Positions 4,121 through 62,320 of a DNA stretch of 64,000 nucleotides are shown here, in pieces. The notes under the pieces were generated by a model that was not told the origin of the DNA, searched no databases, and saw nothing but the letters and a program-made list of their open reading frames with translations. The DNA is from Albula goreensis (lineage: Eukaryota > Chordata > Actinopteri > Albuliformes > Albulidae): NCBI GenBank assembly GCA_022829145.1, contig CM040744.1:682001-746000 (forward strand). The letters run 5' to 3'. The position numbers and the translations under genes are program-made. The number at the start of each line of letters is the position of its first letter. Positions within the stretch are counted from its first letter, which is position 1.

Positions 4121-7100
4121 AGACATTATACAGCTTTATCACATGACTTTTTCCTTTTTTAACCTTTTACGTGGATGTTTCAGGTGAGCAATAGCAATTA
4201 GCTCAGTGGCTACTTTCCCAATTTAACAAAAAATATATATGTTGCCATTCATCGATGAAAATGTCATTTACTTAGGAGGGAGTAAGTTAAGACTAAGTTT
4301 GTGAGTATTAACTCTCCTTGAAATTAGATATTGACGTGTTAATTCGCTAAAAATGAACACAATATCCAGATCGATGTTAGGGCTGACAGGCCGGCAGCCA
4401 TGCGGGGAGATTCATAGCTTGTGGGGAGGAAAACATTTTGATTGGTCCAAATTGTCAATAATTGACACCTGAGTGCAGCCCCACCCATATTGGTGTTCAT
4501 GAAATCTTATTTCAACCATCACATGGTTTGATGGTGGTGTTTGCCTTCGATCTCTTGAAGAGATTGAGGGTTCCAGTATTGAGCTTGAATATTGGGCATT
4601 AGATATTGAGAGGGAAACTGTAAAACCATAAAACAGAGTAGATTTAAAGTCAAGACCAAGGAAGAGCCAAATGAATCGTGAGAGTAAACCTGTTCACTTT
4701 TATCCCAGACCCATCCTAAAATTATATTGTCACCCCATTAGTCCAAAATATGTACAAGACCGTCCAGAGAGAGAATGAAGGCCATTCACTCCACTAAAAA
4801 GTTAAAATTAGATCCCAAATTAGTGTTTTTTTTCCTCTCTCTGTGTTAATAATCCCTGAGAAGGTCTGCTGACAGAATGCCAGACAGTTTGTTTCCAGAA
4901 CTTTCGGTTTAAGTCCATAAAAAAGCTGTTTCTGTAATCTGTTCTGGTTTTTTTCCCTTTTTTTGGGGGGTGGGGGGCTGCTGCCCTCTGGTTCCCTATG
5001 GCCTGTTCTGGGGTCATGGTAATGGGGTTTGGCATCTGTTACATCCCTGTGTCCATTGTTTTGGGCTTTCTCTTGAGGCCAAGTTGATACGACCGGTCTG
5101 TCTGCTGAGTCAATCTGTCTGCCCCAGCTGCGTCCGTAGTGCAGAGCTCCAGAACCTGCTGATACAACTGGGCAGCATTTTTAGCACGTTAAAACGGCAA
5201 AGAACTACATATCCCATGACTGAATTGATTAAGGTACTGAAGGTGCTGAAACCTTTTGCGAATGTGTCCCTGAGAGGCGACAGTTTGTTCCCATCATGCC
5301 TCGGTACTGGCACTTGCCGTTTGCCGCCGTAGACTACGAGTTCTCAGCTGTTGCGTAATCTGTTTGCTTGCCCTGAAGGTGTCGTTCGCGGCTACGTATG
5401 AAACTCGCACTTTCACATCGGTCTCCTACCTCTTTTTTGCAAGCCTGGCTTCTCGCACGCCTCGAATCCGGGAGACTTCAGTCCTGGTTGGTTTCAGCAT
5501 CTACATGTTTTTTAGGGTGTGTTTTCCTTTCAGTTATCGACCACTTCAGGCCTTAGAAACAAGTTATGTGGACTTTTTGGCCAATCAATATTTGAAATTA
5601 ATTACATAAATGCTGAAAGGCACAAACGGACACTGTAGTTTAGAACACAGTCTGACTTCTGCTCTAGTCAAACAAGGCATCCAGTAGTTCTTCCCAGTCC
5701 CAATCCTGAGCGAACAAGAAAGAGGACACTATGTGGCAATAGCTCAGCTCCAAAAGGAGGCCCCAGGTCTTTGCTGTCCACCTGCTGAATTGTGCACCCC
5801 TAGTGTGCTAGGGAGCGTGACTGTTTTAACAGGTGCTGTGGCTAATGCGTGAGACATGAATGCCTCGCTCCTGTGATCTCATTCGGCAGAGAGAGCTGCT
5901 CCTGTCATCTGTGTGTGTGTGTGTGGGGTTTGTCTGAGTGACTCAGTGTATGTGTGTGTGTGCTGAGAGGGCGAGACCGACTCTCTCTGCCCAGTGCCAT
6001 ACCAATATCATTATGATCAGTAGATGTAAAAAGACAGTCATTGCAAGCACTCAGTGACTGTCTTTTTTTTTGTTGTCCTTTTTTCCATCACTGAACTCAG
6101 ACAAAGAAGATTACAGTTCAACAAAAGGCCATGGTTAAACTAGTCCCACTCGTTCCACGAAAGCCTTTGTACGTACTTCACCCTGTTTAGATTTCCTCAG
6201 TTCAGAGAATTAGTTACACAAATACATGAATAATGTGTCAATCTCACATTTCTAAGCAGAGGAAGAGAAATCAGTCAGCACAGTGACAGCGAGCACACGT
6301 GTATAGCTGCCACTCCAACGGGGGGGGCAGTTGGGGGGCTCAGCTGTCTCTGTCTTGTACAGGACGCTTGTCCCCAAAACCGAGTGGAAAACATCTGCAA
6401 ATCCCACCTCCCCCCCTTTCTGTTCATCTGTGTTTAGGGAGCTTACAAAGATGACATCACTACAGATGCCCGGTGGCAGATGTTCCCATGGCGATGAATG
6501 AGGCTCAGTTCTGTCACTCTGAAGGTCAGACAGAGGTCACTGTACAACCCGACCCAGGCAGTTTAAGCCAAAGTCCTTGCTGCCCCCCCCTCCCCCCCCG
6601 ACAAACCTTCTGTCTGTTCGTCTGTGCAGCCCTTCATTTTTATGTTCTCCCCCTTATATTAGCCATTCAGCAGAAACTCATCTGTATTTACTGAACTTCA
6701 GTTTGTATTGCGTTTGGATTAGATCCTTTTTGTTTTATGTCCCCCAGTCTACTTTGTTATTACTGGTGGTGTGGTGTATTTAGCTAAAATTCTGTTTACT
6801 TCAGGATAATTTGTGTGGGTTTGTAGTTTTGTGCTGCAGATTGTAACTTTGGTGGTGGGTGAATGCGCAGGCAGCTTCAGAACAAGGTGAACACAAACAA
6901 ACCCCATGTGGCTGTACGGGGTTTAGCTATACCAGCACTCTGTACTTGTCATTCAGAACAGGGGCCCTCTGATGTTCTGTCTGTGTTGTGGATGGAGGTC
7001 CTTTGACTGGGTGGGGGGAAGGGGTAAAAATCTTGAGTGTAGGCAGCCATTTTGTTGTAGGTATGTGTGTGGAAGCATGATTTGTGATGACTGTGTGTGT

Positions 7101-12460: not shown

Positions 12461-12461
12461 T

Positions 12462-12600
12462 ACATTGCATTTTAGGCATTTAGCAGGCGCTCTTATCCAG
12501 GGCGATTTACAACACAAAGTGCATTTCTTTTGGGACAAGGGTGTTAAAGTGCTGCAGGGGGTAAGAGCCTCAAGTGCCAGAAGATTTAGCATGGACTAAA
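12462..12600 (-). mobile_element. L2-type retroposon 3' tail fragment
   Basis: TTTAGCAGGCGCTCTTATCC and CAGGGCGATTTACAA are the reverse complement of the conserved fish L2/SINE tail (TTGTAAATCGCCCTGGATAA...GCTAAA). The sequence AAGTGCATTTCTTTTGGGAC follows, which is also seen next to the tail fragment at 40,860-40,955. Confidence 0.65.
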
Positions 12601-19018: not shown

Positions 19019-19300
19019 GTGGACAACCTTATTATTGTTAAAACCTACCATACGATGGCTACTGCCTGCAAAAAAACACTCCTTAAATTGGACTACTTAA
19101 TATTACATCTCTTGCTCCTAAAGCAGCTCTTGTTACCAATCTTATTCTTAGATCATAGCCTTAATGTTTTGTGTCTGATGGAAACTTGGCTAAAACCTGA
19201 TGAGTACGTTGCACTAAATGAGGCGTCTCCTGTGGGTATTTTCGGTGCTCAGGTGTCACACGTCCATCAGGTAGGGGAGGTGATGTTGCAGCTATTCATC
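19019..19300 (+). mobile_element. Non-LTR retrotransposon fragment, endonuclease N-terminal part
   Basis: The plus-strand translation contains LNVLCLMETWLKPDEYVALN followed by EASPVG. This resembles the ETWL...NEA(S/T)PPG region of the APE-type endonuclease of CR1/L2/Rex-type LINEs. Only about 90 residues remain. The fragment stops where the minus-strand L2 copy begins, as if interrupted by that insertion. I do not find its continuation beyond 20,870. Confidence 0.6.
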
Positions 19301-20870
19301 AATACATTACATTACATTAAAGGACATTTGTTAGACACTCTTATCCAGAGTGACTTACAAGGCAAAGTGCATAAGAATGGTACAAAAAGTGCAAAGATAA
19401 TCCTAAAGAGGGGTGAAGCCCAAGTGCCAAAGGTGATGGAATAGATAAGGACTCCTCTACCAACTATCTAAAGAGAAAGTAAACAACAGCCTAGGTTAAA
19501 AACAAATCAGTTTCACAACAGCAAATAAGGGCAGAGACATTACAAAGAGCAAGGGAGGGGAAGGGAGAAGTGCAGCCTGAAGAGGTGAGTCTTCAGTCTG
19601 CGGTTGAAGGTGGCCAGTGCCTCTGCTGTTCTGACCTCCACGGGAAGGTCATTCCACCACCGGGGGGCCAAGACAGACAGGAGACATGACCTTGAAGTGC
19701 AGGAGCGGAGAGGGGGTGGCATCAGGCGACCAGAGGTGGCAGAGCAGAGGGGTCTGGCAGGGGTGTAGGGTCTGATGATCTTCTGGAGGTAAGCTGGAGC
19801 TGTCCCCTTAACAGCCTGGTATGCTCGCACTAAAGTTTTAAATTTGATGCGAGCAATAACAGGCAGCCAGTGGAGGGCAGTGAGCAAGGGAGTGACATGA
19901 GAGTGTCTAGGGAGGCTGTAGATCAGACGAGCTGCAGCATTCTGGATGAGCTGCAGGTGTAAAAGTAAAAGGCAGCAAGTAGGACAGTGGGACAGCAGGA
20001 GCTAGGAGACGTCAGTAACAGAGAGGGGAGAGAAAGTAGAGAAACGGGGAGAGGGGAGCAAGGAAGAGTGGAGGTGGTAGTGAAGGAACTACGGATGTCA
20101 GTGATCTTCTCATCAAAGAAAACTGCAAAGTCGTCCGCAGAGAAGGAGGACTGTGGTGGGGGAGGAGGGGTGCTGAGGAGAGAAGAGAAAATAGAGAACA
20201 GTTGATGAGGGTTAGAAGTAGAATTCTGAATTTTAGCTTGATAGAAACTGGCTTTGGCAGAGGAAACTGAGGAAGAAAACGCTGCCAGGAGAGACTGGTA
20301 GGTGGACAGGTCAGATGGGGCACTGGATTTCTTCCACTTCCTCTCAGCTGTCCGTAGTCTGGCCCTGTTGGCAAGGAGGACCTCAGACATCCACGGACTG
20401 GGAGGACAAACAAAAGGACAGCAAGTATCAAGTGCTGAAGAGAGAGAGGACAGCAGAGTAGAAGATGCAGAGTCAGTGGGAAGATTGGAGAAGGAGTCGA
20501 GGGGCTGAAGGGAAGCAGTGACTCCGGAAGCGAGAGAAGACGATGAAACAGAGCGGATGTTATGGCGGACCGTAACACAAGGGGAGGGTGGAGGGGAGGC
20601 AGGATGGGGAGTAAGAGGGAGGGAGAAGGAAATGAAGTGGTGGTCGGACTGATGTAGAGGGGTCACCATGAGGTCCGAGGATGAGCAGTTCCTCAGGATG
20701 ACGAGGTCGAGAACATTGCCACACTTGTGGGTCGGAGGAGAGTGCAGGAGGGAGAGGTCGAAAGAGTGGAGAAAGGGTAGGAAGGCGGCAGACTGGGAGG
20801 CTTCCAGGTGAATGTTGAAGTCTCCCAAAATGATCAGCAGGGTGCCGTTTTCAGGCAGGGGGCTGAGCAG
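19301..20870 (-). mobile_element. L2-clade LINE, 5'-truncated and internally deleted
   Basis: Read on the minus strand, it opens with PENGTLLIILGDFNIHLE, the catalytic GDFN block of the APE endonuclease, then the C-terminal endonuclease and linker region (NVLDLVILRN, QSDHHFISF, DDFAVFFDEKI). Most of the reverse transcriptase is missing. The sequence resumes with its C-terminal end (TALHWLPVIARIKFKTLV, LSVLAPRWWNDLPVEVR, FNRRLKTHLF; 19,540-19,960). The junction lies near 19,960-20,000. The 3' end is the conserved tail (TCTGGATAAGAGTGTCTAAC, reverse complement near 19,325) followed by (TGTAA)n at 19,301-19,320. Such copies cannot move by themselves. Confidence 0.85.
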
Positions 20871-21390
20871 TCTAAAATTATTTGGATTAGAGCTATAAGA
20901 TTCTGCAAGGTCCCATAAATTTAATGCAACTTTTTACGCTTTTTTTTTCTGGAAAATCCATGACATGAACTGGGGGTCCTAGATGAGTTGGCATTGAATG
21001 ACCCATAAGTTAATATGGACACTGCAAATGTTATATGGGGAGGGAGGGGGAAGACAGCAGAACAAGAAAGCAGCTGTTTCAGACATTGAACATTAACTGT
21101 CTAGTACATCTAGTTCTGTATGACCAATGTATACATAGCGAGAAAATATTTAGCTCCAGAAACATGGTTAAATATTGACGTGCAAAACAAAAATATCATG
21201 GGGTTTGCCAGTCTTGCAAAACGTCACTAATTTTGGTAGGTACAGCTTTGGGACACAGTCTATATTTGATCAACCTAAGCAGCAGGGTTCGCATCAGACT
21301 GATCTTTGGATGGGAACACACACAGATAACTGTATACTTTTATTATAACCAGTTACCATGAGTGTATTCAGGTCACAGACCTAAAGGGAA

Positions 21391-22484: not shown

Positions 22485-25028
22485 CTACAGAATCAAGGGG
22501 AGCAGCGAAAAAATGTAATTATATAAAGCGTACTTTGATCGCGTTGCATCTTCTTAAATTCTTTCACGAGACTAAGTGCATTTGAGAAGATCTAGAGAGT
22601 TTGTAAGTTCCTACACTCTAATGAGAGGTATTGACTGTTCTGTTATTACAACGGTCAATTATTACACTTACCCAAATTCAAGAACTTCTCCAGAATGACC
22701 TGAATGTAAAATGAAAACCCCATTAAAAGACCACAGAGAAGAGGCACAAAACTCGCTTTAAACATATGACGTTTGGGTAATACAAACACACACACAAATA
22801 CACACACATGCATAAATGCAGCACAAAACACATATAGATAGACAAACACACACATGCGCTCAAACACACGTTCACATACAAGCACACTCATGAAAATGCA
22901 AGCACACATACACAAATGCACTCACGCAAACATTACAAGACATTAGGGTTGAATGTGTAAAAAGTGTCAGAAGACTCACTTTGGTGTTCTCATATGGGAA
23001 CATGTCAATCGGACCATCTGCGGCAAACGGGTCGACCAGAATGGCGTCAAAGTCCTTCCCCACCTCAAAGTTTCCGGTTCGGTCATCGAGGGAGAGAGCT
23101 GAGGAAACCAGCCACCAGTAACCCAATCAGGACAGGTTTCTAAGTGTGAAATAAGCTTCCTCACAAGCCTTATTCATACTTGTGGTAAAGTGTCGCTCAA
23201 CTTCAACTGTTTTCTTTGCTAACAAACTGAAAAAGTTGAGACTGGTGGTGGGGTCACTCTCAAGAATGTGTTTGAATGTAGGACAAATCTGCTGAATTGC
23301 AGTTTTTTAGAAAAAACCCATGAATCTTTGGTGAAAATCAGTAAAAACTGAACACGATAAGTCGATCGTGTAGGTAATAGTCTGACGCTAAGCTAAAGTG
23401 TTGTTTTTTTCTTGAGGTAGCCTGCATTTATTTGCGTTTCCGCTCTCTGTTGACTGTTACCTTGGCTCCCGCCCAGTGTTGCCAGTCTGAAGACCTCCTC
23501 AAAGGTAAGAGTTTTGTATTCGGGGTCCTGGATTTTCAGAGCCTTGGAGGTGTCCAGCGCGCGTCTAATGGCATCCAGCATAGAGGGGGAATAGCCACCA
23601 GCCACATCTGAGAGGAAAAGGGAAGCAGAATTTTTGGGGGCAAATGCTAATGTGTGTGTGTGTTTGTGTGTGTGTATATACACACACCGAATATATACAT
23701 AAACACACACTTTTTGCAATGATCCTTCAAATGTGGTTTAACGATAAACTTTATTATCTCAAATGATTCTGACATCAGCGCACTGAACAGTAAACTTCAC
23801 TTATTATAAATAACTATAAATAAAAAAACACAAACAGAAGAAAATATATATAACTTGAATTAAGGAAAGAAACATAAAATGCTGGCTATATAACTTTAAA
23901 AAATAAAAAAAATAAAAACAAGGCAACTGTGTAGGGCAACTACTGCCAATCCAACAGGGGCAGGTTTATGCAGGAAGAACAGCTTTTCTGCATTGTAAAC
24001 ATCGTAAAAAAAAATAAATAATAACAAATAACAATAAAATAAACTTTAACTGCAAAGAATATAAATCACCACCTCATTTTCTGAATTATATGTTCTGTAA
24101 AAAAGTTTTCATTTCGGCACATATCTGAAAACATATATGCCGATCCTGATCCTGATATATATATATTGGTCAGGCTATAGTCTCAGAGTACGTGCACTAA
24201 ACCCAGGTCACAGTGTTTCTGTAGAGTATTTGGAGTAATGATGGTCAAATGAAACACCTTTTGAACCCCATAATGGGTGGGTGGAGCAACAATGAGCCGT
24301 CCAGCCCTTACTTCTTTGAACCAATCAAAATTTTCCTCTGTTCAGCAAAACACAATGGTCAACCCGGTCAGTTACTGGTGTCATTTGGTAGCTCCGCCCA
24401 TTTGCGGTGTCATGAATCGCCATTCTCCCACTGCAGTCGGCTGATTGGCTACATGCTTACCTGTGCCCAGGCCCAACTTCACGTTATGCTTCAGGACCCT
24501 GCGGACGTCCAGCATGCCGCTGCAAAGCCTGGGCATACAAAAATGCACACCCATCAGCTATGCGGGTCTATTCTCTCTTTTTCAAAATAACACACTCCTT
24601 TGTACATGTCGCTATAAGATGGCCTCACTCTTTCCTGCACACTTCACTTCCTTTGTAAACCACGTTTGGCAGAGTAGAAGCTAAGCAGAGGAGCTTGGCA
24701 TGCAGGACAGTAACTAAGGGGAGGGGCCTGGCAGTAGAGTAGCTAAGGAGAGGGGCTTGTAAGCAAGGCAGTAACTAAGGGGAGGGGCCAGGCAGGCATG
24801 TTGGTAGCCAAGGGGAGGGGCATGGTTGGCAGGGGAAGCCTAGCTCTGACAGGTGGCAGTGGTGCTGTCCGTCCTGGAGGGGAACGAGAGCTGTGAAGAG
24901 TGGGGCTGTCTGTACTCACGAGATGTTGGAGTTTGGGCAGTGAGAGATGGAGGCTCCGGTGTCCCTGAAGAGCTTCAGCTCCGAATCGGTGAGGTGGCAG
25001 GCGTGGGCCATGACCGTCTGTCAATCAC

Positions 25029-34000: not shown

Positions 34001-36769
34001 TTCAAAATATCCATCTTTATGTATTATAGCGCCGTGGACAAACAGGATGTCAATCAGCGTTCTGCAAAAAGGACGTTTCATCACGGAATAATCGTTTTGG
34101 CTGACAAGTGATATGAATTCAAGTGAAAAAGCCATAATGTGGCGTAAAGTAGGTCATCAGATAGGGACTATATACAGTTCAAAATAATTCCATATATTCA
34201 AATTATGTATATTGATATCAATATGCTACATAGACGTTGACAAGCGCAAACAAATAAAGACGAGGATTGTTGAGCCAAGCCGTTCGGTTGTTGGAATCGG
34301 CGATGTGTGTACTAAGCAGCGTTTTGTAGCGCCCAAATAACTTTAGGGGTCTATTCAGACTTGCCCGTTTGGGGTGGAGATTCATAGAAATTGTGGCGTT
34401 TCTAATTAAAATACCCTCTAAGCGAATTCAGACATTGACTTCAGCGAATTTTCAGGGTGCGTGTCCTACGCGCATAACAACCCTGTATTAAGACGTGCAC
34501 TCCTATCGATCAGACTTTGATAAAACCTTTTTTTTTTCCAGTGTTGCCGTATTGCATGAATTTGGGTAACTGTACAAATCATTTAATTATTTCTGGATAA
34601 CAGGCGCACGTAAAAGTATTACTCTTACCATCGCCAACAATTGAGTTGAATTTGAAATGCATGGCTGCATTTTGGCCCGTGTTCCTCAGTCCCCACGTCT
34701 CAAATAAATAAAAACTAACGCTTTTGGAGTGTTGTGCTTTATTAACTCTATGAACCCACGGGTAATAACTCAGGTCTTACATCTTATCATATGCCAAAAC
34801 AGATGTAATCATCAGGTCTAGTAAAAAAAAATTATTTACCATAGATACTCAGTACATTAAAATATGATATCAAGCAATGTTTATCGTTCAACGATAAACC
34901 ACGCTGTGAAAATTGTTTGACAGTAAACCTCAGGGATTTTATTTACTTCATTAACCTAAAATCGAATGAAACAGTATCCAAACCTAAAGTAAGAAGCTGA
35001 GATTGCAGTTTAATCAAGGAAGGTGACACAAACAGAAATGCAACGGGTTTACGTAAGTTGTACAGTTAAAACACCAGCGACTTTGCAGTGTAAATACTCG
35101 TGGTTTCCTTGTATTATAGCAGTAGGCGTTCAGTATAATAAACATGTTGTTTACCGTGTAATTTATCAAATTACAAGACAGGTAGTTTATTAAACATGAA
35201 AACCTAACCGTGCTCTTTCCGCCTAGACCAATTTTAATGGCTGTCGGGAGATGTGGTTGTTATTCGTGTTTTACCTCATCCAAGTTCCTCACTGCCGCAC
35301 TCTGATTCACCAAACAAAATGATCCAGGTGTTATCGGCAGGACAGAGTGCATACACGAGACTTGTACCTGGTTCGACTCAAATGAATAAATATACTCTTT
35401 CAGCACGACTAACTGTTTATTGGACATTGGGATAGACTGACGGACACACCGAGAGGCTGATTATAGCTAAGTATGAAAAATTCAAAACATGAGCGGGTAC
35501 TGTGTTGTCCTTACGTTGATATCCAGCATTGCAATTCCTGACAAAATGTATACGTTGTTGCTACTGCTACTTCACAAAAGTGCATATTAACATTTTAAGT
35601 TTATTGCCCATAAGTAGTACAACTAGTATCTGATCTTGACACATCATTTCTCAGTAGGCTATATTTTAACCAGATCTACCGGCTACGAATGAAATCAATT
35701 TGATTTAAATATATTAAAAACCATTAACTACGCTTAACCGAACTACTCGGCTCTTACATGTAGATTGCGCTGCATGATTTTTTTCGAATACAATTGCTGT
35801 ATCTGATAACATACATTGAAGCCACTTACAGGGCCATCAAGTTTTCGTGGGGGCATATCATTTTCCTGGCTGAATTAGCATTATTCAACATCCTATATAC
35901 TATATCCTAAAGGGTCCTCCTACTTTTCTGCCCTCCCCGGGCCGGGCGTGGCCACATAGGCCAGATCAAAATACAAATAAGAATTTTCTGCGTATCTATT
36001 ACCGCGGAAAAAACGCTGAGCGCCCTCAAGTCAGAATTCCCTGCTTAGTTGCCCCCAGACATAAGAAAGCAAATGCATTTCAAAGAAACAAAACGCTATG
36101 TTGTTTTATGAGCACACTTTCACTATCCTGGTGGGCATTTTAGTGGGTGGAAGAAAATGTTTGTACATGCAGTTACAACTGCAAAGCAAAAAACAAAACA
36201 AAAAAAAAATATCCATAACATCTTTTTATATATAGGCTAAATATAGATTGGTATGTGTGATAATCCACACAACACAAAATATGTTTTATTTTCCTTTTCT
36301 GTCAATGATTAACTGACAGAAAACTTAAAACGATTGCTCAGAAGAAGTTTACTGCACAGACACGGTTGGTACAGTTAAGACTAGAATTAAGTGCTGGAGA
36401 TTTCATTCAATTCTTGAATAATATGCATAATATCCTATTGTAATTTAAAAAACGGATCGATTTTCCTGTAAGATTTGCTAATTTCACATCAGAAAAATAA
36501 AACAATCTGAGTAATAATACAACGGCATTTTTCAGCTCTTTTCTTTTTCACTGTACAGTGAATACCGTGTATAAGATAATTATATAATACACTGTCGGGT
36601 AAGCATCTCTTACTGATATTTACTTATGGAATATATATCTTACCCTTCCCTCCGTATCAATACCCAGAATCCTATCTTCTAGAACTTCCACCGGTGCATT
36701 TTCGTTTGAGTGCACAAATGTTCCCCTGAAGACTCTTGCAATGTCTACTAGAGCGTCGTTTGAGCTCAT
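22414..36769 (-). CDS. gda: Guanine deaminase (guanase), complete gene, 14 coding exons
   Basis: Gda hydrolyses guanine to xanthine and ammonia in cytosolic purine breakdown; in mammals (cypin) it also binds PSD-95 and tubulin. The 14 exons join in frame to 451 residues (human 454) on the minus strand: 36,644-36,769; 33,886-33,974; 32,452-32,623; 30,515-30,602; 29,286-29,391; 28,522-28,549; 27,450-27,557; 26,704-26,811; 24,920-25,017; 24,461-24,528; 23,461-23,607; 22,980-23,098; 22,672-22,699; 22,414-22,484. All introns are GT-AG. The amidohydrolase zinc ligands are present: H83 and H85 (PGLVDTHIHAS), H241 (SHISE), H280 (VMAHAC) and D331 (GTDVAGG). E244 in SHISE is the expected proton shuttle. 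Each sits one residue later than in human. The start is the only ATG in frame at the head of exon 1, next to a TATA box. The C terminus lacks the strict human SSSV end (it is QESV) but keeps a PDZ-type S-V terminus. I see no lesion. Confidence 0.96.
22672..22699 (-). CDS. gda: gda exon 13 (28-nt microexon)
   Basis: VILEKFLNL plus the first base of G429. It is bounded by a TTCAG acceptor and a GTAAGT donor. Human has VIQKFLYLG at this place. Confidence 0.93.
22775..22930. repeat. CA-rich degenerate repeat in gda intron 12
   Basis: ACACAC and ACATACA motifs repeat through most of the 280-bp intron between exons 12 and 13. Confidence 0.75.
22980..23098 (-). CDS. gda: gda exon 12
   Basis: Residues 380-419. 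It contains GNFEVGKDFDAILVDPFAAD, the C-terminal metal-dependent hydrolase segment that closes the small beta domain. The acceptor is TCCTCAG and the donor GTGAGT. Confidence 0.96.
23461..23607 (-). CDS. gda: gda exon 11
   Basis: It begins by completing D331, the aspartate that activates the zinc-bound water (DVAGGYSPSMLDAIRRALD), and continues to EEVFRLATLGGSQ. Residues 331-379. Confidence 0.96.
23608..24460 (-). other. gda: gda intron 10
   Basis: AT-rich. It holds a short GT/TATA/CA palindromic microsatellite at 23,650-23,690 and the dispersed repeat copy at 24,240-24,415. No other gene seen. Confidence 0.7.
24240..24415. repeat. Dispersed repeat copy 2, partly palindromic
   Basis: It has the TAGCTCCGCCCATTTGCGG then TGTCATGAA block in plus orientation and also an inverted version of the same parts (ATGGGTGGGTGGAGC and TTGAACCAATCAAAATTTT) on its left side. 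This suggests an inverted-repeat element. Confidence 0.5.
24461..24528 (-). CDS. gda: gda exon 10
   Basis: Residues 309-330 (LCSGMLDVRRVLKHNVKLGL then GT) plus the first base of D331. I chose the acceptor CCCAG at 24,529-24,530 because it keeps the human spacing (NLSLSSGFLNV). A second in-frame AG lies 9 bases inside the exon and would drop three residues. Confidence 0.9.
24672..24836. repeat. GGGGAGGGGC minisatellite in gda intron 9
   Basis: Five imperfect units of about 30-35 bases carry the core TAACTAAGGGGAGGGGCCWG. They fill nearly half of the 391-base intron. The plus strand is G-rich, so G-quadruplex formation is conceivable. Confidence 0.75.
24920..25017 (-). CDS. gda: gda exon 9
   Basis: Residues 276-307 (TVMAHACHLTDSELKLFRDT, then GASISHCPNSNI). 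H280 is the zinc ligand. Its 3' splice site is preceded by a (GAT)n microsatellite and not by a pyrimidine tract. Confidence 0.95.
25023..25083. repeat. (ATC)n microsatellite at the gda intron 8 acceptor
   Basis: On the minus strand this is (GAT)n ending GGTGATTGACAG at the splice site. On the plus strand it is CATCATC repeated about 15 times with a few CACTAT interruptions. Confidence 0.95.
25084..26703 (-). other. gda: gda intron 8, remaining part
   Basis: No other gene seen. It contains dispersed repeat copy 3 (26,420-26,595). Confidence 0.7.
26420..26595 (+). repeat. Dispersed repeat copy 3
   Basis: The blocks TTTTGATTGGTTGAA, TGACAGCTGATTGTAGCTCC and ACCCATTTTTGGTATCA occur in the same order as in the copy at 4,431-4,525. 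A second TTTACCAATCAT block in inverted sense lies at about 26,467. Confidence 0.5.
26704..26811 (-). CDS. gda: gda exon 8
   Basis: Residues 240-275, opening with SHISETKAEVNLVHELFPDY. H241 is a zinc ligand and E244 the likely proton shuttle. It ends KHNLLTNK, like human. The acceptor is CCAAG, a less common AAG type. Confidence 0.95.
26812..27449 (-). other. gda: gda intron 7
   Basis: AT-rich. Nothing else recognised. Confidence 0.7.
27450..27557 (-). CDS. gda: gda exon 7
   Basis: Residues 204-239: YALVKPVVTPRFALSCTTKL, then LDHLGEIAKNNDLHIQ. The VTPRF(A/S)LSC block is a hallmark of guanine deaminases and contributes to guanine binding. Confidence 0.96.
27967..28452. mobile_element. Nonautonomous inverted-repeat DNA element (GGCTGCGTTCCAATACT), gda intron 6
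   Basis: The left end GGCTGCGTTCCAATACT is mirrored exactly by the right end AGTATTGGAACGCAGCC. TAT flanks both sides (27,964-27,966 and 28,453-28,455). It is 486 bp without an ORF of its own, and the inner arms are rich in CTCCTTTCCTCC / GGAGGAAAGGAG. It is the shorter relative of the element at 7,282-8,630. The 3-bp target duplication suggests a PIF/Harbinger-like or similar transposase in trans. Confidence 0.8.
28522..28549 (-). CDS. gda: gda exon 6 (28-nt microexon)
   Basis: It completes R194 and codes for FIGELLKRK (residues 195-203), equivalent to human RFVSEMLQKN. The acceptor is TGACAG and the donor GTAAGT. Confidence 0.93.
28873..29242. mobile_element. Short inverted-repeat element in gda intron 5
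   Basis: The left end CCTGGTCCTGGAAAACCACA is mirrored by TGTGGTTTTCCATGACCAGG near the right end (29,205-29,223). The inside has TTGATTACACAGTTAACACACC. This looks like the CCTGATCCTGGA...-type repeat common in fish genomes. Confidence 0.55.
29286..29391 (-). CDS. gda: gda exon 5
   Basis: Residues 159-193: DKYGQRALVGKVCMDVNKAV, then DCYKETADLSTDETN. Human has DKFGQRAFVGKVCMDLND at this place. Confidence 0.96.
29505..29670. repeat. (CATA)n/(CATG)n microsatellite in gda intron 4
   Basis: Degenerate ATGCATGC and CATACATA units repeat over about 165 bases. Confidence 0.85.
29820..30340. other. GC/CpG-rich island inside gda intron 4
   Basis: This 500-base patch is much richer in G+C and CpG than its surroundings (CCGCCGCCTCCGCGCC, GGGAACCGGCCAGCCCGAC). 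It contains a plus-strand open frame of 176 codons (29,836-30,366). The protein shows no family I recognise. Other readings are an alternative promoter or enhancer of gda, a captured gene piece, or chance openness caused by high GC. I see no evidence that it is translated. Confidence 0.45.
30515..30602 (-). CDS. gda: gda exon 4
   Basis: Residues 130-158: KRTLKNGTTTACYFATIYTD, then STLLLGEIA. It is almost identical to human (RRTLKNGTTTACYFATIHTD). Confidence 0.97.
30603..32451 (-). other. gda: gda intron 3
   Basis: No other gene or clear repeat recognised in 1.85 kb. Confidence 0.65.
32452..32623 (-). CDS. gda: gda exon 3
   Basis: It completes H72 and runs to V129. It contains QFFMPGLVDTHIHASQYSYT with zinc ligands H83 and H85. 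The run LPxLQWLNTYTFPVE matches the guanase-specific segment that contributes to substrate binding. Confidence 0.97.
32624..33885 (-). other. gda: gda intron 2
   Basis: It holds a (GT)n plus purine-rich (GA) stretch at 32,970-33,145. No gene otherwise. Confidence 0.7.
33886..33974 (-). CDS. gda: gda exon 2
   Basis: Residues 43-71: IAFIGRAEEVGKLSQAWGFR, then ISDVKHLGA. This aligns with human IVFLEEASQQEKLAKEWCFK. It ends with two bases of H72. Confidence 0.94.
33975..36643 (-). other. gda: gda intron 1
   Basis: The largest gda intron, 2.7 kb and AT-rich. No repeat family or other gene recognised. Confidence 0.7.
36644..36769 (-). CDS. gda: gda exon 1 (start codon)
   Basis: Residues 1-42: MSSNDALVDIARVFRGTFVH, SNENAPVEVLEDRILGIDTE, GR. 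Human has HIFRGTFVHSTWTCPMEVLR at this place. The donor is AGG|GTAAGA. Confidence 0.95.
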
Positions 36770-36812
36770 CGTGCAGGCTGTGAAGCGGCACAGAGCGCAT
36801 TGCGGTCGCACG

Positions 36813-36820
36813 CATATATA
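36813..36820 (-). promoter_or_regulatory. gda: TATA box of gda
   Basis: TATATATG reads on the minus strand about 45 bases upstream of the start codon, in a locally GC-rich stretch with CCCACTCCC just upstream. The distance implies a 5' UTR of only about 15-25 bases if this TATA is used. Confidence 0.6.
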
Positions 36821-36849
36821 GGGAGTGGGAGCGGTCACACACGCCTGTT

Positions 36850-37480
36850 GCGCCAGCCTCCCCCCCAACCCCTTTGGTGGGAGGCATCCAAGCGTGTGCG
36901 CGCTCAGTCCAAGGTTGCGCACAGGCTCCACCTGCGCTTGTTGGGAACTTTCCAGTTACACCGAATGGCGCTGGAGTGTGTGCAAAAGCAGTGTACAGTA
37001 GTAGTAATAGCAGTAGTGGGATGGCAGAAACTGTAAACGCAGACACAATGGTTATGTACAACATTTTTCATATTTTACAATTCAAGTGTACATTTGTTGT
37101 AATTTTGACACTGAATATAATATATCGATTTTACCCTTTAAACACAAGGAGGGGTAAACGATCTCAAACATATCAAGAGAAATGACAAAAACAGTAATAA
37201 ACAAACAAACAAACAAATAAACAGTATTCTGGCCATCTGGCCTGCAATGTTTCTCAAAGTGAAAACAAACCTTTACTTTCTGAACTTTTTTTTCTTCCAA
37301 CTTTTTATCTTATTCAACTAAACGATATCAATCATTTATTAAATATGTGTATTGTGTATTCAGTGAGTGTACAAATACACCGCGTTACATTCCACTCACT
37401 CCACAGAGTCCAATCTGAAAAAGTATCACAGTAAAAGGTTTATGTCAGAAGTCTGAGAAAGTACATTCTACACTGACAGA
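36850..37480. other. gda upstream intergenic sequence
   Basis: GC-rich up to about 36,960, then AT-rich. No gene seen. Confidence 0.5.
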
Positions 37481-39429: not shown

Positions 39430-40530
39430 GCTCTCCAGGCATGACCATCTGCGTCATGTGACCACCAAGCGTCATGCTTGCTTCTGGAGAATGCACACAA
39501 GAATACCCACATCAGGTTACATTCCCGTTTTATTTCTGAGCTCTATCCTCTCAAGAACTGATTCCCAAATGAAAATTCCTCATGCCAGCAGGTTTGATTG
39601 ATCTGAAGGATACGCATGCAAAAAAAAAAAAATAGACTTGTGAACAAGACCAAGCACGAGCAGCAATGACATGCTCGCTCATTAGCCGTCTCAAAGCCCC
39701 CCAGTCGGCTCCTGGTCTTGGAAGCACTCTCGATTTTACGGACGAGCACCACGCTGACACGCTGTGAAATGCGGTCAGCATTAGCGTCAGCATATTGTGT
39801 GGAGCTGCACCATCTAAGCAGAACTGGTTTCTGGCCGGTTTGTCTCAGAGATATGTGGGGTTTCTCTTTTGAGAATTTAGGGATTATGTAACATAATCGC
39901 TTTTTTTCTTCTTTTTTCTTACAGTTTATCTTGACCGCTAAGATGCCTTTCTTGAAATAGTTCTCTGTTTCCCAAAGCTCTTGACAAAATTGCAAAACTA
40001 CACACTCATCTCCACAAACATCAACCTTCCATGTCAAAACCATATAATCTTACATCTAAACCAAACTTTGCCTTCAGACATCACACCAGTGAGATGAATT
40101 CAAAACACTTCTGTAAAAACTGTTTCTGCAATGAATAATGCGACTCTACATGATGAGCACAATATAATACACAAAATATGAATACATTGTCAAAGGTTTT
40201 AATCCCTCGATGTACTGTGTGTAGTACACTAAACTTTTGAGTTGTGTGTTGCTCTGGATAACAGTGTATACAGAATGCCTGTAATGTAATGCAACGTAAA
40301 CTGACATTGAGTGACGAAATAAAACATGCAACTAATAAAGAACATAGAGAACAGTAAAATAATTTCCACATCTACAAATAAAAACTAATAAAAAAAAAAA
40401 AAAAACAAAACAGTTTGTTCATCATGACATCACATCTATTCTGCCTTAGCACCCTGTCTCTGGTCTGAGATTCTCATCAACATCACAGGCAATGTTATCC
40501 TTAGCCAGGCAGCAGGGGAAAAAAACTCTT
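39430..40530. other. Intergenic region, no gene recognised
   Basis: Only unrecognised ORFs on the minus strand at 39,543-40,371. They match nothing I know and have no neighbouring exons. Confidence 0.5.
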
Positions 40531-40740: not shown

Positions 40741-40859
40741 GCCTTATCCATCCCTGGCAAGCCTCAACCATGATATCTAAACAAGTCCCCAATATGGCCT
40801 GAAGGAGGTAAACATGGATGTATGGGTCTCGTTCATAGGACTCTTACATTAAACTTAAC

Positions 40860-40955
40860 ATTATAGGCTTTCAGCAGAAGCTCTTATCCAGAGCGACTTA
40901 CACTTACACACTAAGTGCATTTCTTTCGGGACAAGGGTGTTGAAGGAGAACATGA
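40860..40955 (-). mobile_element. L2-type retroposon 3' tail fragment
   Basis: CTTATCCAGAGCGACTTACA is the reverse complement of the L2/SINE tail. AAGTGCATTTCTTTCGGGAC follows, as in the fragment at 12,462. Confidence 0.65.
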
Positions 40956-57300: not shown

Positions 57301-58560
57301 CAGCAACTGTTTGATGCACTGACACCAAACACCACACCACATTACCAACACCACATTACCATGTGGACTCTTAACCCATATTTTAGGATGTCCAAAAAAT
57401 GTTGTGTCATTTGACCACCGGGGGGTGCTGCAATAGGCAAAAACGTATTTGGGATAATAACTGTTGATGTGTTTGCCTTAAAAATTCCTGTGTCTCATGA
57501 TATCTTAAGAGATTCCAAGGCTGAGACATGGCAACTTGTCATGTCAACCTAATTGATGTAGCCACCATATTGGGTCTAATCGAAAGATGTAAAACATTTT
57601 TCACAAGACACAAAGTTTGTCCAAATTTAGTAAGTGGAAACAGTTCGTTTCCCTAAGTAATTTTTTACGAGAACATCTTGTTTTCATGCTTAATATTTTC
57701 AAAGGGCCTTTATTCTGAAATTACACACACTAAAATGTTCTGGAACTTTCTGCAGCTCTCTGGGGTCCTCTACAATGTGTCTGACGTGGAATTAGTGATT
57801 GGAAACAGACGATTTCATTTCCATAACATGCTGACTACGATAACTTGTCAACCTGTATGAGAGACGTCAGTGCTCCGTAGAATCAAATTCCACAGTGAAT
57901 TCCCCCGAGCCCCTGGTAAGCCAGTGAAATTGTTTTGACTTTACATAATGTATTTTTCATTTAACTTTTGAATCAAACCCTAATATTATTAATCGACTGT
58001 AAAGTAAATGAAAGCGACGGATTATTCAGTTCTTGCAGTGGCGGCTGGCTTGACCGCAGTGAAACATCAACGCGTGTCACCTGGTATCTACAATTTCTAC
58101 TATGTTAGCGTGGAAATACTATAATACAACAGTAAATAGGAAGAACATTGTTACAAATATGAACCGTTTAACAAAGGCTGATAGCCATTATCATACGAAG
58201 TTAGGTAGCTGATTAAGATTAACTTTATGTGCCATGTTTTCAATCTTCTGTCGGCAAAACGAGGCTAGTTAGTAAAGTTAGCTAGCTACTTCTTGAACAC
58301 ATCGGTAGTGTGTAATACCGGCAATTAATACAGCTAGCTATAGTGACGATATGTGACAGTTGAGAGTTAGATATGTCTAAATGAAGAATATAACTGCCGA
58401 TCTGTGTGTGGTGATGAAGACTAAATATTAGCAAAATAACACCAACAACTTCACTCACCTTTACTTGAACACTAGCGCCGTACTTATTATTTTTGAAAGC
58501 AGATGTGTTTTGGTACTTCTGTCGTCGCGAACGAGAAACGTTCCCCTTTTGAGAACTCAT
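49621..58560 (-). CDS. C9orf85 homolog (DUF2039 family), complete gene, 4 coding exons
   Basis: The four exons join in frame to 194 residues: 58,459-58,560; 55,824-55,930; 52,271-52,384; 49,621-49,882. The protein starts MSSQKGNVSRSRRQKYQNTS, like human C9orf85, and keeps the block EVLEWKVKYSKYKPL. It has four CxxC pairs: C45/C48, C70/C73, C86/C89 and C96/C99, probably binding zinc. It then has CGKKEDIVIP and an acidic, low-complexity tail. The function of the family is not known. The N terminus is basic, and the tail has eight consecutive Glu (114-121) and two runs of five Asp. All introns are GT-AG. The exon boundaries keep the reading frame with split codons C70 and P108. It lies downstream of a divergent region and upstream of gda on the same strand, as in human. 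The start ATG is the one conserved with human. Confidence 0.93.
49883..52270 (-). other. C9orf85 homolog intron 3
   Basis: It holds (AT)n at 50,502-50,528, two ZNF143-like motifs (near 50,024 and 51,686) and a tandem repeat at 52,110-52,262. No other gene. Confidence 0.7.
52110..52262. repeat. GATTGGACAGGGAGAGTCTGG tandem repeat
   Basis: Units near 52,119, 52,151 and 52,183 share (T)GATTGGACAGGRAGAGTCTG, and a fourth partial unit is at 52,247. The last copy ends a few bases from the exon 3 donor site. Confidence 0.7.
52271..52384 (-). CDS. C9orf85 homolog exon 3
   Basis: It completes C70 and codes for VKCLQKSVKDAYHIICKPCA, then LQLELCAKCGKKEDIVI. This holds three of the four CxxC pairs and is very close to human VKCLQKTVKDSYHIMCRPCA. 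Confidence 0.96.
53160..53500. repeat. Higher-order (CA)n array with GTACCACCATTCTCTCTCAC units
   Basis: A unit made of (CA)n plus TGTACCACCATTCTCTCTCA and CTCTCACAC repeats about six times, with the (CA)n part growing from about 8 to about 40 dinucleotides from left to right. Confidence 0.92.
54270..54362. repeat. (CT)n-(CA)n compound microsatellite
   Basis: CTCTCT followed by about 28 CA units. A poly(A) run at 54,196-54,215 lies nearby. Confidence 0.95.
55824..55930 (-). CDS. C9orf85 homolog exon 2
   Basis: Residues 35-69: KANAKVHDGVCKHCKEVLEW, then KVKYSKYKPLTQPRK, plus two bases of C70. It holds the first CxxC pair. Confidence 0.96.
55931..58458 (-). other. C9orf85 homolog intron 1
   Basis: It is mostly occupied by the inverted/tandem repeat structure at 56,265-57,840. 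No other gene. Confidence 0.7.
56265..57840. mobile_element. Foldback-like element with tandem ~150-bp subterminal units
   Basis: Two direct copies of a unit (TTTCAGAATAAARGCC...AAAACAAGATGTTCTATTC...TTCCAATC...GAGGRCCCCAGGTA) lie at 56,270-56,415 and 56,420-56,592. An inverted copy lies at about 57,670-57,835. Between them is AT-rich sequence with CTGCATTTTGTAA at 56,601, 56,650 and 56,726 and its inverse TTACAAAATGCAG at 56,765. The part 57,000-57,360 (CCAATCAAAATCAGTGGTGA, ACAGGAAGTGAGGTTATATC) looks like dispersed fish repeat sequence. No transposase is seen. Confidence 0.65.
58459..58560 (-). CDS. C9orf85 homolog exon 1 (start codon)
   Basis: Residues 1-34: MSSQKGNVSRSRRQKYQNTS, then AFKNNKYGASVQVK. 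Human has MSSQKGNVARSRPQKHQNTF. The donor is AAG|GTGAGT. Confidence 0.95.
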
Positions 58561-58740
58561 ATTGTGCTGATATTCGACTGTATAAATATAAATATATATA
58601 TTGGCTTGCGGCTTATTAATCTTTCAATTGAGATCAACTCAAAACCACGTTGCTGTACTTATTTTCCGACCGGAGCAGCAGCAATAAGAAAAGTGCTTCC
58701 GGGTCGTGGTTGTCATAATAGTAGTACTCTACAAAAATGA
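58561..58740 (-). promoter_or_regulatory. Probable promoter of the C9orf85 homolog
   Basis: A TATA-like AT-rich run (TATAAATATAAATATATATA, 58,578-58,600) and an ETS-type site (CCCGGAAGCAC on the minus strand, about 58,691-58,701) lie within 140 bases of the start codon. CCGGAAG sites are usual for housekeeping genes. Confidence 0.45.
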
Positions 58741-58744
58741 AGAA

Positions 58745-61163
58745 ATTGCTGCTGGAATTTGGCTGGAACCATGTATTCACAGTGAATGCACCTCATTTTA
58801 TGGCACATTTATTATGGACTGTAAACACAAAAAAACTGTAATACATGTCTCAATGAAAATGGGGTCCAGGTTACTCAGGAACATGTCTAGTATCCAAAAC
58901 AAATGAGTTTTTAAGTGGTCTGAAATATATCACAAATGAACATAAAGCACAATGAGCCATAGTATACAATGAGTTCCGACGTCTACCGTAAACTGGTGCT
59001 AACACGGACATTAACTGAACTACGATAATTAACACTTGACTGAATTCAAATGCTCATAATGTATAAAGCACAAGAAAGAGAATTCTGTGACGAAATCAAC
59101 CAGAAACGGACAAAGAGGCCATGTACAGATCCGCAATCTGTCGAGACCTGGGAAAGGAAGGCGAAAAGTGCAAAAATATTTGCATAGGTCTTTTCAAATG
59201 CAGATTAAAAGATGTTCTTTGAATGGTAAGACAAATATGCACGAATCACAGATAGCTAATATAGAAAAACTTCCTGTGGAAAAACTTTCCTCCATTGGAA
59301 AAACTATATGTAAATTCTGAAGTAAAAGCTGAGACTGCTGGCTCAGCTCTTCTCTACTGTCTTTGTTACATCTCAAGGCTATGCAGAGTGTGTTTAAAAA
59401 CCTGAACCGACAGTCCATAACAAGGTGTACTTCCTCTGCAAATGGCCTTGCCATTTTATTACAGTCCGCACTTCATAGTCCTGGGTGTATATTCCAGCAT
59501 ACTAAGTTACGGAATGTTCTGGTTGAGATAAAACAAATGATAACATCTTTGTCATTGGATCAGCACAATGATCCACATGATTGGATTTACCCAGTTTTGT
59601 CCTGGTTTAATATTTTGGGCATTAAAACTATGGTTAGTGTGATACACATGGATAGCTGTCAGACATGTGAAATCAGCAGCACATACAATGAGCAAGACGT
59701 TTTTTTTTTTTCAGGTTCCTCTTACAATTTCACAAGAATCACTTGATATTCTTTTCCATCAGATTATACCAAAGGGCGAAGCTACAAGTAGACGTGACAC
59801 ATGTAACAAAGTACTAATTTGACAAACCGTTTGGACCAGCAATCCAGATAATACTGTCATTTTTGCATCCCTTGTTAGTTCCAACGGCTTGTCAGTTATT
59901 CGAAATCTTGTTCCACCATCACCATTAAATAATCTTCCACTTGCTGGCAACGATACACAGAAATATAGGTTAAGCTCTGTAATATGTCACTCAGGGAAAT
60001 CAGTCAGAAGAGGCCATTACTGGTCAGCGCTTGTGTAAGATTCGAGCTGATGACGTGAACGTCTATAATGATTCAAAAAGCGATGAAAGCACAGCAGGAG
60101 TAATATGTTTGTATGAAATACAAGCAAAGGAAACCCAGGACGCATCGAACCAAAATAACAAAGTAGAACTGTCAGACTCAGATTCTAATGCGCTCTGGAT
60201 AAGAGCGTCTAACAAATGCCCGTAATGTAATGTAATGTAATGTAATGCTGTTTTAGTATCACCATGTCACTACCTCCCCAAACAGCCAGACGATAATTTT
60301 CACCCATCTTGATATTCATGAGTCAGACGTTGGCTTTTTCGAAGTACGTTATAAAAGCTGTATGAAAAAGGCTGGAGTGCAAAAAAACTGAATTTTGATT
60401 TAAGAGAAATAGTTCATGTGAGCTCTGGCAAATGTATAGACATTTAGATATATGATTCCTAAGACAATCAATAACCTTCCGCCCCCACTAAATGATGAAG
60501 ATTATGATATAATAAGTAATGACAAATGGTTGAATGACAATAATTGGTGTGTACCATGAACATTTCAAATATTGCTTGAAAGACCAGACTATATTTACCA
60601 TTTATGCTTCTTTTGCAATTGCAAAATGTCTGTTGTCAAAATATAGATGTTTTATCACATGTATCAAAGGCTGTGAGGAACTGGTGGCAGTTTGAGAAAG
60701 TAATAATACTGGTCAACATTAAATTGCACTGGGCAGTCATGTCCATTGATGTGTAAAATGAAGTTAGGGCAACATTGTCACATTATGTTTTCAAATTATG
60801 GATATATTGTCAATATGTGAAAGGGAATTAAAGGAGACTCTTGTCCGACTAAAATATCTAACACTTCAGAACTTGATAATTTACGGGACCGTAATAGACA
60901 TTAGTATTCATTATGAATTTCGCCACTGCTGCCCATATTTCAAAAAACAGTCAGAAGGAAGTAGCTGTGGTATCTTTGTCTGTTCATTTTCCAAAGCAGT
61001 TTTATTTAGTTATAACATAAATCCATTTTGTCACAGTGACATGAGAGAATGCCTTCCCAGCCCCACTTTCATTGAGACATAAATTTTAGTTTTTTGCAAA
61101 CAGTCTAAAATAAATGTGCCATAAAATCAGGTGAATTTATGGTGCCAGGCAAATGCCAGCAGC
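58745..61163 (+). mobile_element. Old TIR-bounded element with USP-like and Ulp1-like peptidase remains
   Basis: The two ends are inverted copies of each other over more than 130 bases. The left end has GCTGCTGGAATTTGGCTGG, CATTTTATGGCACATTTATT and CATGTCTCAATGAAAATGGG. The right end has CCCACTTTCATTGAGACATA, AATAAATGTGCCATAAAATC and GCAAATGCCAGCAGC. The plus strand between them carries parts of two cysteine peptidase domains. A ubiquitin-specific-protease-like part spans about 59,380-60,120, with the His-box region KYRLSSVICHSG...GHYWSA and the end DDVNV...AGVICLYE. An Ulp1/SENP (C48)-like part spans about 60,480-61,080, with SNDKWLND, VNIKLHWAVMSID and GSSCGIFVC. It is clearly old and broken, with several disruptions. 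An L2 tail with (TGTAA)n was later inserted at 60,188-60,246. No transposase is recognised. The superfamily is unknown to me. Confidence 0.65.
60188..60246 (+). mobile_element. L2-type tail with (TGTAA)n inside the peptidase element
   Basis: GCTCTGGATAAGAGCGTCTA then ACAAATGCC is followed by five TGTAA-type units. This is a typical end of a 5'-truncated L2 or SINE insertion. Confidence 0.8.
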
Positions 61164-61185
61164 AGTCCATAAGACATCACACCAT

Positions 61186-61300
61186 TGTCAAACTCACTTG
61201 TTTTGGATACTAGACATGTTCTTGAGTACTCTCAATCCCACTTTTTTCTGTACAGTCAGTCCATAATAAATGTGTCTAATGTATTTTTCCCCTATGGTGC
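61186..61300. repeat. Extra partial copy of the peptidase element's subterminal repeat
   Basis: ACTTGTTTTGGATACTAGAC then ATGTTCTTGAGTA and CAGTCCATAATAAATGTG repeat, in inverted sense, parts of 58,800-58,910 (CAGGAACATGTCTAGTATCC). This lies just outside the right end of the element, so a second copy or a duplication is likely. Confidence 0.6.
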
Positions 61301-62320
61301 TGAGTATATGTCGCAAGCAGTCGGCAAGAGTCTAAAATCGCCACGTCTCATTTGGACTCGATTTAGGATCTTTATTAATGTTTTCTTTTACGGTCTAAAA
61401 TACTTACAGTCATGGTCCACGTGTTTTTGTGTCTTAAATCTGTTTTGCAGCAGCTGATGCGAGATGATAAGACAATAGAGTCCCTTTTGACATGTGTTGA
61501 ACAAACAAAATTGGGGTGATGAACAAGACTTCACACATATGATAGCAATCTGGAATTATAATAAGGCAACATAAAACAATTACCATTTTAATTAATTCAA
61601 GTGTTAATGTTTACATTCCAGGTCATGTCCATGTTCGTATCATTTTAAAATCTGGTGTTGAATTTAGACAGGAAAACTAATACTAATCTATTACCCACTG
61701 TTACCCACCTTTATGTTTTTTGTTTAGTAATGTTGTACAATATCAAGTATGTTAAACACTCGTAATTAATGCAAAGAATTCAATGAACTCATTCAGCACC
61801 TCAACACACCAAGAAAACGCTATTATTGTAAACATTATTATTATAGTTACAGTTATACCCTTAATTACATTTGTCGACGTACTGGTAATAATATGCAACC
61901 TTTTGGATAGTTCAATAGTGAAAATAACCGCGTTTTAGAGGTAACAATTCACATAATAAAAATATTGAAGTTCATCGGGGCTTTTATTTTGACGTATTTC
62001 ACGGGCTTATTGCCTCTAAGTACAACTAGCTGCGAAAGCAGTTCTGTGTAAGAGAGCGTCCATTACGTTAACCGGAACAGAACTGCTACATTCATGTCGT
62101 CATTCCATCTGGCAACGTTTAAACATTTTTCTTTTTTATTATTTGCTCTCTGGTGGTTTAGCTACATATAATTTGTGGACAAATTACACTTGTGTTTTTC
62201 TGTAGACACACCTGACTCCTTTTCTTTTTCAATGATACTGATGAAAAGTCTGAAAGTAAAAGCATTACGTCATTCAGCAAAGAAGCGCCACACCTTGTAC
62301 AAACAGATTGTGCCAGAATT
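61300..62320. other. Intergenic region, no gene recognised
   Basis: AT-rich, with only unrecognised ORFs. Nothing else seen. Confidence 0.5.

Follow-up and report, generated by a model that had tools for sequence, protein, structure and literature searches.

Remnants of USP- and Ulp1-type peptidases in a probable foldback-like transposon of the fish Albula goreensis

The window analysed here, a stretch of 64,000 nucleotides from Albula goreensis (C4:682001-746000), contains a repeated element which, judging from its alignment to other copies, spans about positions 58657 to 62045 (about 3.4 kb). Its parts follow each other in the order left end, plus-strand unit, USP part, Ulp1 part, minus-strand units and right-end segment (Table 1). 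Elsewhere in the window a fragment resembling a LINE endonuclease-reverse transcriptase was found on the minus strand at 19926-20933 (E 8.7e-5, below cut-off), together with two exon-like frames, also on the minus strand, at 23396-23737 and 36623-36955, which resemble guanine deaminase exons; the first gave Amidohydro_1 with E 0.063, below cut-off, and the second no match.

Table 1. Parts of the element and their positions in the window
Feature	Position	Strand	Basis or remark
Left-end segment (LE, "T"), shortened in the window	58657..58749	+	family terminus ACCTGTGTTCCGCCAGCA...
Subterminal ~180-bp unit, left arm (initially annotated as left inverted repeat)	58747..58923	+	repeat alignment, genome matches
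Segment C, inverted copy of 61584-61647 (within the right-end segment)	58989..59052	+	score 43, null maximum 29
USP-type (C19) ubiquitin peptidase coding remnant	59282..60190	+	stops and frame changes
Short insertion like a retroposon tail with (GTAAT)n, between both domains	60191..60244	+	absent from copy L020, flanks contiguous there
Ulp1/SENP-type (C48) SUMO peptidase coding remnant	60482..61079	+	last codons within right arm
Right arm, first unit (partial), inverted	61061..61164	-	repeat alignment
Right arm, second unit, inverted	61177..61331	-	61177-61274 found by tool; extension to ~61331 taken from the alignment
Right-end segment (RE)	61332..62045	+	last ~24 bp by eye, a diverged terminal inverted repeat

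The initial annotation described a USP-like part followed by an Ulp1/SENP-like part, and the peptidase motifs on which it relied are present, spread over several frames. The USP part appears to be the remnant of a C19 ubiquitin peptidase of predicted activity, with a near-complete domain and both the Cys box (DCWLSSSL at 59333) and the His box (GHYWSA at 60012) but no intact enzyme. Its unbroken frame at 59823-60035 matches the Pfam family UCH with E 2.5e-6 (27.8 bits, cut-off 23.9) and USP35 as the best match in PDB (E 0.00095), and joining by eye of the frames of the whole part gave a UCH match with E 1.2e-9 covering positions 9-239 of the 254 in the profile. One CxxC pair is found in the window and the second has lost its first Cys, this second CxxC being kept in the copy L018. 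In the independent copy L017 the Cys box reads NCWLNSSLQSLL, and a match with E 6.2e-4, below the Pfam cut-off, was obtained there without any joining.

The Ulp1/SENP-like part is decayed and its assignment weaker than that of the USP part, the Pfam scores lying below cut-off, and it is the order of its boxes (WLND at 60527, HWAV at 60727 and GSSCGIFVC at 60957) together with PDB lists headed by SENP proteins that argues for it. The ordered triple WLND - HW - GxxCG, with patterns written after the sequence was seen, was found a single time in the window and never in 60 random 64-kb sequences. The unbroken frame at 60768-61079 gave Peptidase_C48 in Pfam with E 0.15 (profile positions 163-198 of 217), below cut-off, and no match in the PDB search, while the joined reading gave E 0.036 in Pfam, still below cut-off, and SENP2 in PDB with E 0.0039. 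When a profile was built from eight rows of the family, including the joined window reading, SENP/Ulp1 chains made up the first 12 of the 23 PDB matches and 15 of them overall; SENP7 was the best (E 0.0025), and the alignments to SENP1 and SENP2 cover nearly the whole profile. Other copies of the Ulp1 part speak against the assignment: Pfam matched none of four short pieces taken from them, and the longest of the four, an unbroken stretch of 91 residues in copy L038, gave a weak PDB list headed by beta-klotho, with SENP7 reaching E 0.98. The USP and Ulp1 frames were joined by eye in the window reading, and L038 shows WLN..IIDVYHDHLKYCLKDQT within one frame, which supports one of these joins.

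The notion of two consecutive peptidase domains, USP then Ulp1, is likewise borne out, and the two probably once shared one reading frame, because in copy L020, which lacks the insertion between them, the frame continues past the C-terminal end of the USP and on into the linker. From its repeat type this insertion is presumably a retroposon tail, and the same kind of repeat, CTCTGGATAAGAGCGTCT...(GTAAT)n, was also seen in the window at 12461-12512, 19300-19350, 40251-40299 and 40844-40895.

Long inverted ends had been proposed around the coding region. The inverted repeats themselves are real and far above shuffled controls: positions 58747-58864 align to 61164-61061 with 74.6% identity over 118 columns and a score of 96 (shuffle maximum 26, and 38 for a longer stretch), and 58856-58923 to 61244-61177 with 81% over 68 and a score of 71 (shuffle maximum 29). 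They do not form one simple TIR on each side, since on the right A' comes first and then B'A'', giving one and a half tandem units. A search of the source genome with the unit as query listed at least 103 matches, the window included, with the best 40 of 214 candidates scored; many of these are tandem at a spacing of about 186 bp and many lie in inverted pairs. Judging from these alignments the inverted repeats are tandem subterminal units of ~180 bp belonging to an old dispersed foldback-like family and not the ends of the element.

The further claim that the inverted repeats bound the element is not supported, as the boundaries of related copies do not coincide with them, an outcome which the initial annotation itself had named as refuting, and the copies continue outside, into the LE segment at 58676-58749 and the RE segment at 61332-62021; the peptidase claim is left standing by this. 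The LE is about 260 bp in the family (best 40 of 161 candidates scored in the genome) and about 90 bp in the window, where 58676-58749 matches the LE of L018 with 81% identity (E 4.6e-15) and the outermost ~19 bp were placed by eye from 25 aligned ends. The RE is about 690 bp with at least 54 matches in the genome, and of the 53 non-self matches listed, 18 end at 62020-62021. Its reverse complement resembles the LE with a GTTCCGCCAGCA core, a modest similarity that scores 34 where the null maximum is 30, and the termini in the family are ACCTGTGTTCC or TGTTCCGCC. No target-site duplication of at least 5 bp was found at the revised ends in the window (random grids average 1.2). At two other two-ended copies, which are old, none was found on C10 and one 5-mer, at chance level, on C5, and the originally proposed ends showed short matches only, at or below background. 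At L057 (C5:2469150-2469330) the right end of one family member and the left end of a second were seen by eye to lie ~11 bp apart, head to tail.

Just outside the left end a minus-strand frame at 58282-58623 presumably represents a first exon like that of C9orf85, although in Pfam the frame gave a TAS2R match alone (E 0.0021, below cut-off). Its ATG at 58560 is about 97 bp from the left end of the element, which may therefore sit in or near a promoter.

When searching the source genome (932 Mb; all counts are lower bounds, since only the best candidates were scored), fragments of the USP were found at four other loci, three with arm units, and fragments of the Ulp1 part or linker at seven, five of them with LE or units in the examined flanks. 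A single locus, C9:3.64 Mb, is common to both lists and carries USP and linker only, giving ten other loci in total, seven of which lie beside family end sequences; the three without family ends in the examined sequence are C2:8.7 Mb, C25 and C1:48 Mb. Both catalytic domains together were seen in the window copy only (one of 11 loci). L020 has the order USP, linker, minus-strand unit and start of the RE (first 88 bp), and in L018 the USP lies between inverted arms, about 1 kb from the left one, with an inverted LE at the far end. Inverted LE segments with no peptidase match were found at L021, L027 and L030. As a control, none of 19 window pieces of 3 kb matches any family segment. In the comparison of segment order among copies and in the divergence set 18 loci overlapping or repeating others were dropped, and the control and divergence counts leave aside matches above 99.5% identity and those in which less than 80 bases could be compared; overlapping loci are still counted more than once in the 3-kb control comparison.

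The family is heavily rearranged among its copies. Relative to the query copy (the window, or L018 for the LE) they differ by 0.09-0.34 substitutions per site with segment medians of 0.16-0.23, covering the matches strong enough to be listed. For nine copies, with frames assigned by the author, the differences at the three codon positions are 182/1012, 153/993 and 178/998 (0.18, 0.15 and 0.18), so nearly flat that the copies look neutrally decayed; L019, the C2 copy that has no family ends, shows a less even spread (45/142, 33/140 and 53/142). At all the other loci the peptidase regions are fragmentary or interrupted by stops; the family is old and, within what was seen of it in this genome, dead. 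Near foldback units at another locus (L028:3527-4075, minus strand) there is an open frame of 183 residues with a Bin3 methyltransferase domain (E 5.3e-19).

In line with the initial annotation, which saw no transposase, Pfam scans of the ORFs in the window (9, then 20) gave no transposase match over cut-off, and the few tests possible found none linked to the copies. In the genome there was no match for a MULE transposase (control found in 3 of 14) or for a KDZ transposase of the KDZ/Zisupton type (control in 0 of 14), and one for a P-type (THAP9/P-like) transposase at C12:5687669 (control in 0 of 14), with none of the listed copies within 200 kb of it. The scanned ORFs of the element, which may itself have arisen by deletion, held no integrase match. 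Searching the window with Rfam (gathering threshold) and for tRNAs gave nothing. A hAT partner was considered, as a hAT C-terminal domain (E 3.5e-6) adjoins units and RE in L004, and rejected: among five other hAT loci listed, the three flanks examined all continue past that point without units, and the hAT domain is for this reason most likely a chance neighbour. Viral relatives were rejected as well, since none of 42 pattern matches in viral contigs was related by tblastn.

Taken together, the element is likely a dead, non-autonomous DNA transposon of the foldback type, with a USP-Ulp1 middle domain and arms of ~180-bp units inside short true termini. The anatomy, the repetition, the co-occurrence and the decay are direct observations; inverted arms with tandem internal repeats lie inside an external flanking domain and there are dispersed repeated copies with shared ends. 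The earlier view of a mobile element is supported. A nonautonomous member was one of three origins initially proposed and is the one favoured here.

The second, a deletion form, can be entertained as a tentative alternative; the parent would have been an autonomous element encoding its transposase together with the two peptidases or next to them, much as Ginger1 joins Ulp1 or OTU to its transposase. It has precedents in Ginger1, Mutator and Crypton (PMC2836005, PMC3212892) and agrees with the deletions carried by the copies seen and with the 1 kb between left arm and USP in L018, but within this copy positions 4440-4880 have no second match in the genome, three of the six ORFs of at least 55 residues at 4412-5640 were scanned without a Pfam match over cut-off, and the KDZ, MULE and P-type searches described above gave just the one P-type match, far from the listed copies. 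That the peptidase pair came from a different element, inserted into or recombined with foldback units, would fit the much rearranged family and the three of ten peptidase loci without ends, but seems improbable considering that the other seven have ends or units, that L018, L020 and the window show a compatible order and that the Ulp1 stop codon falls inside the right unit. The third origin, one-time capture of a host gene pair or a retrogene, is very improbable: USP and Ulp1 are host folds and no intron was seen in the USP part, but fragments of the peptidase region recur at ten other loci and the genome searches with USP and Ulp1 proteins listed only such fragments. No intact USP or Ulp1 gene was among the matches of these searches at E 0.001; because the matching worked on single exons, a host relative at greater distance may exist, a one-off capture being disfavoured.

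For the non-autonomous foldback transposon the following mode of life may be proposed. A transposase supplied in trans, or since lost, would have moved the element by binding its ends and repeated units; the repeats of Galileo and Tetris have been proposed to act as such binding sites (PMC4079207). The peptidases, when intact and perhaps made as a single polyprotein, could have stripped ubiquitin or SUMO from proteins of transposition, repair or silencing and thereby helped the family to move, a role in keeping with what has been suggested for Ginger (PMC2836005). It is an unlikely, more specific possibility that a lineage of fish transposons had a USP-Ulp1 double deconjugase dedicated to its own life cycle, one that took both ubiquitin and SUMO off silencing or transposition proteins, along with an as yet unrecognised transposase.

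An enzyme pair for stripping ubiquitin and SUMO appears unusual for a mobile element, and among the open-licence papers listed none was found that describes USP and Ulp1 in the same element; the portions available of PMC10175614, PMC12062965, PMC6431247 and PMC7599744 added no such element and a term search in PMC12730594 gave no occurrence. Ginger1 resembles the present element in being a DNA transposon with Ulp1 or OTU peptidases, placed at the C-terminus of its transposase, and has a TIR of about 40-270 bp (PMC2836005). It differs in that its transposase is of the integrase type, its termini are TGTNR and its duplications are of the CCGG type, none found here (the family termini examined show neither TGTNR nor a CCGG/CCGT duplication), and in the portion of that paper drawn upon no USP is reported for it. 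The same source describes Ulp1 in Mutator elements and a Trichomonas protein of transposase_11 and Peptidase C19, in which a USP-type peptidase is tied to a transposase as well, but in a protist, with the transposase present and, in that portion, no mention of Ulp1. Ulp1 is further found in Cryptons (PMC3212892), in Utopia/NeSL (PMC4640811) and in the KIU/VANC Mutator-like elements (PMC13317346), where it lies in an extra gene and silencing is escaped; these are plant, non-TIR MULEs, and the text available mentions no USP. One ubiquitin- or SUMO-type peptidase at a time (Ulp1, OTU and, in one case, C19) is carried again and again by transposons that are not related to each other, a hint that removing such tags benefits mobile elements, and a family with both types side by side would make this idea directly testable in vertebrates.

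In architecture the family compares with Tetris of Drosophila virilis (PMC4079207). Both have an external flanking domain and tandem units in long inverted arms, the Tetris units being ~220 bp, and Tetris too is described as non-autonomous with no transposase found. Tetris has target duplications of 8-10 bp, in contrast to the present family, for which none was found, and its variable middle domain is described as being without apparent coding capacity, whereas that of the window element appears once to have encoded both USP and Ulp1.
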